DNA of 64,000 nt from Nautilus pompilius (taxonomy: Eukaryota; Mollusca; Cephalopoda; Nautilida; Nautilidae): assembly GCA_018389105.1 (NCBI GenBank), contig JACATO010001025.1:186001-250000 (forward strand), given 5' to 3'. Numbering within the stretch: the first letter of the stretch is position 1; the number at the start of each line of letters is the position of its first letter. The notes beneath the pieces are model-generated. The model worked only from the letters and a program-made list of their open reading frames with translations. It was not told the DNA's origin and ran no database searches. Shown piece by piece: positions 27,743-60,888 of the stretch. Made by a program: the position numbers and the translations under genes.

Positions 27743-27862
27743 GAGAGAGAGAGAGAGAGAGAGAGAGAGAGAGAGAGAGAGAGAGAGAGAGAGAGAGAGA
27801 GAGATGACGTTAATGCAGAGATGAAGAGAGGAGCGATGATGTTAGTACAGAGAGAAAGAGAG
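27743..27862 (+). repeat. (GA)n array with decayed CRE-like units
   Basis: About 60 bp of pure GA followed by GATGACGTTAATGCAGAG and GATGATGTTAGTACAGAG. Both are degenerate forms of the GATGACGTCAGTACAGAG unit seen in the other arrays. No exact TGACGTCA remains. Confidence 0.8.
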
Positions 27863-29957
27863 TTGCTCGCGGGAGTATATAAAAGAAGTTCCGCCTTTTA
27901 AAACAGGTTGTCCTTAAGCGAGAACCAGTTATTAGGTACTGTTCGCTTTCCGCGGTATACTTTCTCCCACATCTAGTTGAATTAGAAAGATAAATAAGAT
28001 AACGGAATGTCTTAATAATTTCTCTGCGCCTGCAAGGTCTGGAATAAATTTGGAGAGATTAAGGCCTCTGACGTCGTCTCACTGATAAAGGGGAAAGCAT
28101 GGCGCATTAACTTCCTACATCTGCTGCTAAGCTTCTCAAGGAAGCGCAGCCGGATACTTATTCATGGCTTTATATATTCTAAGTGTCCTTCAATCTTTTC
28201 GAAAAGAGCTTTTGATGTTTTGTGAAAGCGATGAAGTTTATCTCCGGTTTTAAAACTGGAGTACGAGCTCTCTAGTTACTCGAGGTGGAAATGATTGCGA
28301 TGGCCGTCTTAGCTCAAACGTTCCCCGTAATCACCTATTTATTTTTTAATATTTTTATTCGGATTGATTGCCTTATCGGAACGCGCTTTATTAATCAAAC
28401 CAGTAGGTGAGTAATCTATTTACTTTTTTAAAAAGTATACTTCACGGCTCGGCCTGAAGACGCTAATCAACCCTTCGTTAAATTATCTACATCCACACGA
28501 AATGGGATCTAGACGCCGATGGCGCCACATCCGTTTGACCCGATGTGGTCGGGTGCGACTCACTTCCTGGTGGTGCTCGCGAGTAACCCGATGCAAGATT
28601 GTCAGCATTCCTGATTACAAACATCTCGCGTCTCCACCAGCTATCATGTTGGGTGAGATTGCAAAACTGAAGTCTTCCTCCCACCCTGGAATTATTCGTG
28701 ACAGTCCGGCCTACGTTTTTAAAGAGCGAAGCCAAGACTTTTCCGCTTCTCGCCCGTCCATTATACCCGACGGCGAGCGCAAGCAAAGGCCAGTAACTCC
28801 GCGTATTCCTCATCGATGCGCGTGCGCTAGGCGGATACCACCACCCCGAAGTGAATTCCACGTGGTGTAGCCAGGCAGAGGAAGGATTCTTTCGACTGTT
28901 TCGGTCGGTCGTTGCTAACAGGTTGGTTCCTAACCCGCCTGGCTTTTGGCCCTTGGCCACCAGTCGGCGCGAGATGCGGTCTCGTTTTCTCGAAGCCGCC
29001 TGTTGTCTTAGCAACAGCGTCTTGCCGGAGACCCCCCCGAAAATGGTTTCCTACCCCGAGCAACGACGAATTTTCTCGGTCCCTGTGCCGCAGCCCCTCT
29101 CGCGTCACACGAAATTTCTCACGGCTGAGTCTGTAGATAGATAACTAATTATCGGAAATCCGCTGTTTTGTTTAATCCCGAGTCCAAAGAAGCAACAGAA
29201 GGATTCCTTAACTAATCCCGACTGCAGCGTTTTCACGGACCTCCCGTTACTTCTGTGTCTCCGTGTCGGAAGCGGTAGATCCGCCAGTGTTTGTGCATCT
29301 TCGTCACTTGTGCCGTGGTCGTACCGGTCAAATATTGACCAATTCTCACCCCCCCACCACCCACCTCCGGTAGATATGTGCGGACACGCCCCGCTGTTAG
29401 GAAAAGGAAGTTTTTCAAATATGTAAGTCCTGTCTTTGGTCTGTCGATAAACCAATACCAACTCCGGGCGATCGGGAACTGTTTGCTTTCTATGCGGCCG
29501 ACAGTCGTCGCCGGCTGTGTATAGTAGTCAAACAAACGACATTTCTCTTGTACAGAGCCGCTGATTACCGGTCTCAGTCGTAATTCGACTCGTCTCTCAG
29601 CCAACTGTTTATGCTAATTAGTAGGTTTTCATGTAGTGTTTCTTCAGCATCAGTTGAATGTTTGGTTGTTTCTTAATTATTATTAAAACTATAACATTTC
29701 ATAGCTTATGGATAATTTTTGCAGTGGTTTAGTGGAGAAATATGTTTTTCTTCATTCCGCCCATTAATTTTTTTTTTATAAAAAATAACAAACTTTTGTA
29801 TTAATCTTTTCTTTTACATCTGCTCCGTGTGTTACTAGGAAGGTTAAAATAAACTCCGGATGGATACTGTTAAGGCGATGTTATTTCGTTTATACGCCTC
29901 TAATGTTCTATGTAGCGCTTTTTATATTATCATAAAAATTATGTTCTTCCAGCATCT

Positions 29958-30104
29958 TTCTCTCTCTCTCTCTCTGTACTGACGTCATCTCCTCCCCCGC
30001 TGTACTATATTGATGTCATATCTCTCTCTCTCTCTCTCTCTGTACTGACGTCATCTCCTCCCCCCTCTGTACTATACTGATGTCATCTCTCTCTCTGTCT
30101 CTCG
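29958..30104 (-). repeat. CT array with TGACGTCA units, two copies of a 66 bp higher-order unit
   Basis: CTCTGTACTGACGTCATCTC followed by CTCCCCC and then CTGTACTATATTGATGTCAT occurs twice, 66 bp apart (first at 29975, second at 30041). There are two exact TGACGTCA octamers and two TGATGTCA variants. The strand given is the GA-rich strand. Confidence 0.9.
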
Positions 30105-30462
30105 TCCTGTCTGCCTACAACATGTTTGCCTGTCCCCAGTGAATCCAGTGATCAACCAATTCTCATCAAAAGTAATCTGTTAAAATCAGAACTTCAGTGT
30201 TGACCCATGTTTACTCTGAAATCTAATTACATCTAAAGCAAAGCATCTGCGCCAATTATCACATTAACAAATTTTCATTCCGCCAGGAAATTATGAGGTT
30301 ATTGGCATGTTCCTCATTGTTCCGAGTTCTAAAATTCCAAACTCTGCCATGAAAGCCGGAGTGTTTATCTTACAATCACAGGCAGAGGGCAACAGGTAAC
30401 GCGGATGTGATGACATGAATATTAGCCTGAGGTTAACAAGGCGAAAATTGGGCAATATATAG

Positions 30463-30516
30463 CACACACACACAAACACACACACACACACACACACACA
30501 CACACACACACACACA
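30463..30516. repeat. (CA)n microsatellite
   Basis: A CA run with one CAAACA interruption. Confidence 0.95.
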
Positions 30517-58769: not shown

Positions 58770-59080
58770 GTGAAGGTATCAGGATAAAATAATTTCTGTA
58801 ACCGTCAGAAAAATAGCCACAAGAATCAGCTTCAGGGAAAATGTATCAGGGTACAATCTGTGACCATCGCCGACAACAGTTACCTGCAAGGGGGATGGAA
58901 TTATCAAGGTACAGGCCAATTTTGTAACCCCTTTCATTTTTAACGACAACAATTAGCTTCGGGTTGAAGGTGTCAGGGATGGTAGCCATTTCTGTAGTCC
59001 TCCTGACGCTAACAATCAAAAATTATCCACAAGGTGCAAGCACCAAGGCAGAAGCCAGCAGCAGCCATTACTGTAGTGTA
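58770..59080. repeat. Highly degenerate tandem repeat, period about 65-75 bp
   Basis: Four to five diverged units share GAAGGTATCAGG (58771; variants ATGTATCAGGG, TTATCAAGG, GAAGGTGTCAGGG), then CCATTTCTGTAACC-like and ACGACAACAATTAGCTTCGG-like blocks in the same order. Confidence 0.6.
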
Positions 59081-59640
59081 AAGCTATTAAGGCAGCCAGC
59101 CATTAGCGTTCCTGGCGTTTACATCAGTTAGCTGTAGGGCGAATTAATTAAGACTGTGGCCTTTTAATGTAGCATTCCCAAAGTGACCTAGTACAGAAAT
59201 TGAATGTATGTACTTGGGTTTGTATTTATGGATCTCAACAGGAAAAATTGTTTGCAAATTCTGCAACGTGCGGCAGTCAGGCCATTATAATCGTAAACAC
59301 GCCTGTTTTAACCGAAAGAATAACTCTGCCGAGCTTTCTCTGTTTACTCTAGATCTGAAGACTAATAACAAATGAATGCAGGTGCCGATTTGCCTAGAAG
59401 GCACTGCAACTACATTGATGATCGATTTTGCACAAGCTCCGATCTTTGATCAGTAACAGGCCCGTGGGTGCTCACTGCGTTTACTAAATAAACTCCCTGT
59501 GCTAATCGATGATTCGTGGTTTTAATTTGTGCGCTCGTCGAGTGCTTGTTTCTTCAAACTAATTCCTAACCGAAGATATTCGTATTTCCCCCATATTCCA
59601 CGTCTGCAAACTTCTGCGGGAGAGGGTGGGGCGGGGGGGG

Positions 59641-59894
59641 AGAGAGAGAGATGACGTCAGTACACAGAGAGAGAAATGACGTCAATACAGAGAGAGGGAA
59701 ATGACGTCAGTACAGAGAGAGATGACGTCAGTACAGAGAGAGAAAGAGAGAGAGAAGTCAGTACAGAGAGAGAGATGACGTCAGTACAGAGAGAGAAAGA
59801 GAGAGAGAGAGAGATGAAGTCAGTACAGAGAGAGAGATGACGTCAGTACAGAGAGAGAGAGGGGGAGAGAGAGAGAGAGAGAGATGACGTCAGT
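59641..59894 (+). repeat. GA array with seven TGACGTCA octamers
   Basis: GATGACGTCAGTACAGAGAG occurs seven times with 20-60 bp spacing, plus decayed copies GAAGTCAGTACAG and GATGAAGTCAGTACAG. Confidence 0.95.
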
Positions 59895-60680
59895 TTGTTA
59901 AATGACACCGAAGTTCACTAGGTTAGGGAATTTTGAAGCGAACATTAGACGTGTGTAAGCAACAGTAAATTGGACGGAAACAGATGGATCTCCGCTAACG
60001 CGATGGAAACCCATAAAACCTGATTTCCTATGCATTTAGAAGTCCTCTCAGCAAATACATCTCAACGAAAGGCTTTACAGAGTGGGCTGTTAGAAGAACC
60101 GGGGTCGAAATAAATCTACTTATTAACCTTTTCTGTAAAAGCCGGAGTGATAATGTGATTTTGATATGTCGAAGGCAGGTAGTTACTCAGACAGATCTGA
60201 TACATCTTTTATTGTTTCCGGTGAATGTTTCCTGAGAGTTCGAGCCGCTCTCGATATAGATCTAAGTAAACTTTTTTTGCAAAGTATTTCAGAAGAAAAG
60301 AAAACAATATGCCGAGTGTCGGAGAGACTTCCGGCTTAAATACTGGTCAGCTTGCTGCGAAGTTTGCCAAAGCTAGGACTTTCTTTTACCAGCATTTACC
60401 GCAAATGTGAGCAGGTATTTTGATCAACTTCCGCTGTAACACTGAGAATTTTGTTTTTACAAGCCATTCTTGAGAAGTTATTTTTAGAACATCAAATCCA
60501 TCAGTGTAATCATCTGCGGATTATTTCGAACGCCTTACCATTATCGACTTGGAACCATATTTTCAGACCAATATATTTGTTGAATTTCGCACAGTTATAA
60601 AAGAAACACTAGTTTAAAATACAATATTTATACATATTTGTTAATAAAAGACTACCGGCAGACTGATATATATATATATA

Positions 60681-60888
60681 CAGAGAGAGAGAGAGAAGAG
60701 AGAGAGAGAGAGGAGAGAGAGAGAGAGATGTGACGTCAGTACATATAGATGACGTCAACGTACAGAGAGATGTGACTTCAGTACATATAGATAACGTCAG
60801 CGGAGAGAGAGAGAGAGAGAGCGAGAGAGAGAGAGAGAGAGAGAGAGAGAGAGAGAGAGAGAGAGAGAGAGAGAAGAGAGAGAGAGAC
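60681..60888 (+). repeat. GA array with two TGACGTCA octamers
   Basis: GATGTGACGTCAGTACATATAG and a second octamer GATGACGTCAACGTACAG. Variants TGACTTCAGTACATATAG and ATAACGTCAG follow, then about 90 bp of GA. Confidence 0.95.

Follow-up and report, generated by a model that had tools for sequence, protein, structure and literature searches.

Dispersed GA/CT arrays that share a palindromic unit in the genome of Nautilus pompilius

A group of eight GA/CT arrays, located at 27.7, 30.0, 37.7, 45.5, 50.4, 52.9, 59.6 and 60.7 kb, was identified in a stretch of 64,000 nucleotides from Nautilus pompilius. This stretch, referred to as the window, corresponds to positions 186001-250000 of contig JACATO010001025.1 (C980:186001-250000) in an assembly of 727,640,739 bases and 2558 contigs. 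The part common to the arrays is TGACGTCAG/TGACGTCAGTA, and its core, TGACGTCA, is a palindrome that we take to be the exact full cyclic AMP response element (CRE), the binding site of CREB/ATF. The repeat family is real, genome-wide and ordinary in kind, and it is unreported in the open literature searched; its unusual property is the perfect CRE of the shared unit. The arrays are probably a high-copy dispersed composite microsatellite or minisatellite that spreads between GA tracts via GA homology.

The palindrome TGACGTCA occurs 47 times in the window. Forty-four copies lie in seven of the eight arrays (0, 2, 11, 4, 15, 3, 7 and 2 in order of position), and the remaining three are found at 31384, 33591 and 52529. 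The original prediction, made from the sequence of the window, had counted the same 44 copies with the same distribution among the last seven arrays and had expected about one by chance in 64 kb; first-order Markov copies of the window (n=200) contained 0.89 on average and never more than 4, and copies of the arrays alone (n=500) contained 0.04 on average and never more than 1. Its description of eight arrays interrupted by one and the same 13-mer was correct in part. An exact core is present in seven arrays, whereas the 27.7-kb array contains only two damaged units. The 13-mer TGACGTCAGTACA is present in 20 window copies, all on the GA strand, but is absent from the 50.4-kb array, which is built of the unit TATGACGTCAGTAAGAGAGA, so that defining the arrays by a single 13-mer is too restrictive. 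Interruptions of at least 5 bp in the eight arrays contain the core within two mismatches in 62 of 66 cases. Two control arrays in the window lack the unit: the 12.0-kb array has two such interruptions, both without the core, and the 56.3-kb array has none. The four CA arrays of the window have interruptions of just 1-4 bp.

The distribution of the unit was determined in the 728-Mb assembly; the published assembly of this species is given as 730.58 Mb (PMC8257504). The 17-mer TGACGTCAGTACAGAGA has 15,461 exact matches (7626 + 7835), whereas the reversed word has none (0 + 0), and the unit therefore belongs to a genome-wide family. The unit places listed sit on many contigs and thus represent many unlinked loci. 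The palindrome alone has 93,914 matches genome-wide and its reversed word 19,528; by our own arithmetic the former is approximately nine times a simple expectation obtained by extending 0.89 per 64 kb to the whole assembly. The search that the original prediction had called for thus found the unit far outside the window, in agreement with its proposal that the arrays have a common origin and have been copied around. A local segmental duplication confined to the window region, for which the occurrence of eight arrays within 33 kb and the recurrence of some variants on the same contig could be cited, is virtually out of the question: the unit is not confined to the window, copies number in the thousands on many contigs, and the array flanks are unlike one another. 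The 15,461 matches of TGACGTCAGTACAGAGA refute it.

Arrays were also studied in a 264-kb sample composed of contig C1:1-200000 and the window, in which 22 carrier arrays were listed. These arrays contain 169 of the 183 copies of TGACGTCA, so that most perfect CREs of this array-rich sample belong to the repeat family. All 85 exact copies of TGACGTCAGTAC in the 22 arrays lie on the GA strand; this single orientation, together with the arrays found in the window by Tandem Repeats Finder (TRF), shows units arranged in tandem, head-to-tail. The sample is denser than the genome (~690 versus 129 sites/Mb), and whole-genome array numbers are therefore rough. Arrays with the strict 23-mer number approximately 2,000, as estimated from 100 of 4310 places listed, and extrapolation gives 7,000-11,000 arrays in total, assuming ~7.7 cores per array and a frequency of outside-array sites bounded by the Markov rate and the sampled rate. 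Six further stretches of ~5 kb, sampled for dispersal, gave counts of 15, 0, 0, 9, 1 and 0. Among GA segments of at least 40 bp, ATGACGTCA is present in 26 of 56 and absent from 30; it is the interrupting 9-mer present in the most GA segments of any. A second half-unit, TGACGTCAG-(GA)n-TA-TGACGTCAGTAC, was found by a permissive pattern at 24 places in the 264 kb (one in the window and 23 on C1). Since this half-unit is frequent outside the window, the part that is truly shared is reduced to the palindrome plus one G after it.

Several GA arrays without the unit hold pieces of it that look damaged, some of which may stem from long-read consensus errors. Four GA arrays on C1, at 11.5, 76, 92.6 and 100 kb (L011, L017, L019 and L020), contain scrambled, indel-rich pieces of the unit and may be old decayed arrays or may reflect long-read consensus errors. 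Outside the arrays, TGACGTCA occurs three times in the window and 11 times on C1, exceeding the Markov rate; for other CpG palindromes with the same base composition the counts go up to 5 and 13, respectively. Sequence relatives elsewhere gave no matches in the genome contig collection searched. A single match on a viral contig was an isolated word at a locus without such an array and was read as chance. The 13-mer was unreported on both strands in the open literature searched, an absence limited to the open library, and four 12/13-mers returned one unrelated paper there. Such arrays are not mentioned in section 6 of the Nautilus pompilius genome paper, whose main text also lacks the term 'simple repeat' (PMC8257504).

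Table 1. Arrays and other features of the window. Positions are those of the window; array units and cores are counts.
Feature	Position	Strand	Units	Exact TGACGTCA	Higher-order repeat	Remarks
Damaged-unit array	27743..27866	+	2 (damaged)	0		62-bp pure GA tract, then TGACGTTAATGCA at 27805 and TGATGTTAGTACA at 27837
CT/GA array	29957..30110	-	4	2	66 bp	
Array	37742..38160	-	13	11	~112 bp	
Array	45510..45814	+	4 (exact)	4		Every exact unit in TGACGTCAGTACACAGAGAG form
20-bp minisatellite	50440..51019	-	25	15	45 bp and 177 bp	Unit TATGACGTCAGTAAGAGAGA
GA array	52873..53073	+		3		Form TGTGACGTCAGTACA
Array	59640..59894	+	9	7	62 bp	Right end directly after core
GA array	60682..60889	+	4	2	42 bp	Repeat contains TGTGACGTCAGTACATATAGA
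Control CT/GA array	11966..12243	-				Long, without unit; switches strand in place of the unit (interruptions e.g. CGATCTCTC; also TCTCGAGA)
Control CT/GA array	56258..56363	-				Without unit
Kelch-repeat exon	2804..3097	+				Pfam match; only host gene recognised in ten frames scanned
Second frame	6073..6399	+				Kelch-like by eye, no Pfam match
Inverted repeat	14478..15192					~112 bp, 69%, around a 129-aa frame that is DDE transposase-like by eye, no Pfam match
5S ribosomal RNA match	17482..17601	-				84.1 bits; ~150 bp beyond, transfer RNA-like sequence by eye; perhaps a 5S-headed composite short interspersed element
Tandem duplication	19097..19480					~170-185 bp at 81% identity; includes CT tracts
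Tc1/mariner-type transposase remains	53853..54806	+				In two open stretches, with Pfam matches to helix-turn-helix and DDE_3

The flanks of the arrays were compared for a shared mobile carrier, which the original prediction had suggested looking for. No common module was found in the 400-bp flanks of ten window arrays (eight carriers and two controls), nor by all-against-all BLAST in the 600-bp flanks of 19 unit clusters in the 264 kb. These clusters comprise 17 arrays and two lone palindromes; five of the 22 sampled arrays lay outside the 600-bp comparison. In the 400-bp alignments, 10 of 90 comparisons exceeded the shuffled 95% level, where 4.5 were expected; the strongest of these matches is a TG repeat, most others are A-rich and a few are other short matches. 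The 600-bp matches consist of GA-rich array edges (up to ~140 bp), which edge detection had assigned to the flank and which also match GA arrays without the unit, and of four short matches of 21-36 bp. The search for terminal direct or inverted repeats returned just scattered 5-7-mers in four of the ten window arrays.

These results bear on the proposal that the arrays were spread by a mobile element, now decayed, whose central repeats they would be (a Helentron/HINE, a pearl-like element or a retroelement tail). Such a process has precedents, since satellite-like arrays of oyster are described on non-autonomous Helentron elements (PMC7492417) and lepidopteran microsatellite families are described as products of RTE retrotransposons (PMC2887409). 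The conserved modules beside the repeats that characterize Helentron/HINE-type elements were absent from the window arrays and from the 17 arrays of the 264-kb sample, and the common element 3' end that characterizes RTE-type families was absent beside the repeat in the compared flanks. With the scattered 5-7-mers as the only terminal repeats, an origin from a mobile element is very unlikely.

The structure of the arrays points to amplification within each array. Matches within four mismatches of TGACGTCAGTA number 67 in the window, and removal of three spurious matches (27822, 27867 and 37744) leaves 64 units; the spurious matches are still included in the counts of spacing and of the base preceding the core given below. 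Units (n=64) of one array differ at 3.6 positions on average and units of different arrays at 7.8, and none of 1000 label permutations gave a difference as large. Units are thus homogenised locally, and one of the four two-unit words traced (see below) is likewise confined to a single array. Higher-order periods found by TRF differ among five arrays (Table 1). Among the 28 array pairs, the longest exact common stretch with a core spans at most one unit.

The unit TGACGTCAG(TAC) may have arisen inside (GA)n. Because units cluster by array and the higher-order repeats are array-specific, amplification within arrays would have proceeded by replication slippage and unequal exchange. From there, units would reach further GA tracts through exchange or template switching that relies on GA homology. 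Such transfer would explain the fixed orientation of the unit relative to GA, the absence of a common flank and the recurrence of one variant in neighbouring arrays in either orientation. Any CREB/ATF binding would be a by-product under this mechanism. Their appearance is that of a self-amplifying repeat family and not that of a proven switch.

Neighbouring recurrence was traced with words spanning two units. For the words of the 50.4- and 37.7-kb arrays, two criteria were fixed beforehand, namely occurrence elsewhere and clustering. The two-unit word TGACGTCAGGAGAGATATGACGTCAGTACA of C1 has 73 exact copies in 39 arrays; because it was chosen after being seen on C1, this contig was excluded from its clustering test. 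Without C1, 30 arrays form six pairs within 100 kb, compared with 0.11 expected under a uniform distribution, and three of the six pairs are in opposite orientation. Generic clumping of units within 100 kb is 2.1-fold without C1 and 3.5-fold with C1. The word TGACGTCAGTACACAGAGAGAGATGACGTCA of the 45.5-kb array, selected after the results for the 50.4- and 37.7-kb words, has 178 genome matches, two of which sit 27 kb away on the same contig. In the 100 of 178 matches listed, 60 arrays form four pairs within 50 kb (0.39 expected under a uniform distribution), one of which joins the 45.5-kb array of the window to its partner 27 kb off. One variant thus shows neighbour-biased, orientation-free sharing, and a second one gives a suggestion of it.

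The palindrome itself may contribute to the expansion. Because TGACGTCA is self-complementary, two units on the same strand can form an 8-bp stem with a GA loop, and such unit-unit stems, as modelled by folding in silico, may favour slippage and contribute to retention of the palindrome. One stretch per array was folded on both strands for four of the eight arrays (eight folds). Six folds contained two or three 7-8-bp stems between units (z-scores of -4.8 to -7.0), and the two folds of the 37.7-kb array contained one 8-bp stem each (z-scores of -1.8 and -1.9). When the cores were permuted to non-palindromes, mean folding was weaker in all seven exact-core arrays. Pairing between units is a property of any repeated palindrome, and a role of pairing in driving expansion is put forward as a hypothesis. 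A bolder version would make the palindrome the engine of a self-propagating repeat, which pairs with itself, is possibly bound by ATF in the break-promoting manner of the M26 hotspot, and copies itself between GA tracts, so that it places tens of thousands of perfect CREs, enough for an ATF/CREB sink or a chromatin-setting platform; this version is quite unlikely.

Several observations weigh against the spread of a self-amplifying unit between GA tracts. No exchange event between tracts was observed directly. The 168.9-kb array of C1 contains a single near-match of the 11-mer unit in the reverse orientation. The two-unit word TGACGTCAGTACAGAGATGACGTCAGCACA of the 37.7-kb array is private to its own array (two of two genome matches), being neither found elsewhere nor clustered. 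The 50.4-kb word has 10 matches in eight arrays on eight contigs and thus occurs elsewhere, but it has no neighbours and is not clustered. The pairs of TGACGTCAGTACACAGAGAGAGATGACGTCA become marginal once general clumping is allowed for, with ~1.3 expected by our own arithmetic. One of the four traced words is thus confined to its array and the other three also occur elsewhere; regional sharing is not general. With regard to folding, the real core exceeded all 20 permutations on both strands only in the 50.4- and 59.6-kb arrays; in five of seven arrays, at least one of the 20 permuted cores folded better on at least one strand.

The presence of a full CRE palindrome, with 44 copies in the window arrays and 93,914 genome-wide, raises the alternative, suggested as an inference in the original prediction, that the arrays are a dispersed regulatory platform, kept because CREB/ATF-type basic leucine zipper proteins and perhaps GA-binding factors bind them. 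Conservation of the core was estimated with ATGACGTCAGTACAGAGAGAGAG, which is intact at 4310 places genome-wide (100 of these were listed and used). With the eight core letters free, 9124 matches were obtained (reversed control 453), and with four flank letters free, 7565 matches (reversed control 2). By our own arithmetic, the genome-wide per-site change is 8.4-9.0% in the core versus 13.1% in the GTAC flank. The window has no fewer than 13 changes on eight core positions versus 15 on three flank positions (binomial P 0.003), a count that treats alternative unit forms as mutations. The excess conservation of the core is only ~1.5-fold genome-wide. Within the 22 sampled arrays, changes in the core are most frequent at the C of the CpG (37/264), with the second C (20) and the CpG's G (18) next; the CpG observed/expected ratio in this DNA is 0.98 and 1.01, i.e., not depleted.

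The arrangement of sites also speaks against a regulatory platform. The spacings between units (n=59, before removal of the spurious matches) show no helical phase and no peak at 10-11 bp, and neither a 10.5-bp nor any other spacing rule between sites was found; a coding frame signal was not found in these spacings either (mod 3 = 16, 13 and 30). As noted above, ATGACGTCA is missing from 30 of 56 GA segments, and no gene was recognised near the arrays among just ten open frames scanned. The GAGA-type factor profile PF09237 gave no matches here, and none in the 14 control genomes, so that this result says nothing about the presence of such a factor. A role for ATF-2 family proteins in fly heterochromatin is described in PMC3444692 and counts as a lead only. 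A strong binding-site constraint on the core is unsupported, and a putative function as a transcription-factor platform is, as judged from sequence, likewise unsupported; the retention of the arrays for protein binding is unlikely.

A further alternative is recombinational. In 56 of 67 window matches (the three spurious matches included), the base before the core is A, and the resulting ATGACGT could act like the M26/CRE hotspot of fission yeast, so that the arrays promote their own exchange. Hotspots of animals usually follow other rules, and this alternative is highly improbable. ATGACGT forms the core of M26 (ATGACGTCAT), which is described as working after transfer to budding yeast, but natural copies of the motif in budding yeast are reported there to have no significant association with meiotic breaks, and in fission yeast the motif requires Atf1-Pcr1 (PMC3534124).

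The spread of a composite repeat through GA homology remains the preferred explanation, and the family has practical consequences. Scans for CREB/ATF sites in the Nautilus pompilius genome would be misled by the family, or could use it as a natural test of the effects of tens of thousands of extra sites. The family also offers a clean case for the question of how an interruption may move between simple-repeat tracts without an evident carrier.

Other features of the window are listed in Table 1. No RNA family was found at 59.5-61.0 kb. Elsewhere in the assembly, haemocyanin loci were observed on contigs C557 and C1362, with seven beta-sandwich domains each (PF14830, 14 matches); they are either two genes or two haplotypes of one. 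PF14830 had no matches in 14 control genomes, and we take this haemocyanin beta-sandwich to be a molluscan family; the matches mark the genome as that of a mollusc, and a haemocyanin of seven units is in keeping with a nautilus.

The arrays resemble several known systems. As in composite or interrupted microsatellites and dispersed minisatellites, short GA-based units are arranged head-to-tail, cluster by array, form higher-order repeats and occur at many loci; unlike the usual composite microsatellites, one palindromic interruption (a full CRE) occurs thousands of times in one genome. The fission-yeast M26/CRE hotspot has the ATGACGT core in common with the unit, but the motif was tested in yeasts, whereas in the Nautilus arrays the likeness is a sequence match only (PMC3534124). 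The Cg_HINE Helentron arrays of oyster, as described, are likewise short tandem arrays scattered genome-wide in a mollusc, but they lie inside elements with characteristic flanks, of which none were seen in the compared flanks of the Nautilus arrays (PMC7492417). The lepidopteran RTE-made microsatellite families are similar as simple-repeat loci of common origin, and are described with a common retroelement 3' end, whereas the compared Nautilus flanks have none (PMC2887409). In the Sp185/333 family of sea urchin, GA microsatellites have been proposed to promote or bound exchange; these GA tracts flank genes, whereas in Nautilus the item exchanged is proposed to be the unit within the GA tract (PMC3091723).

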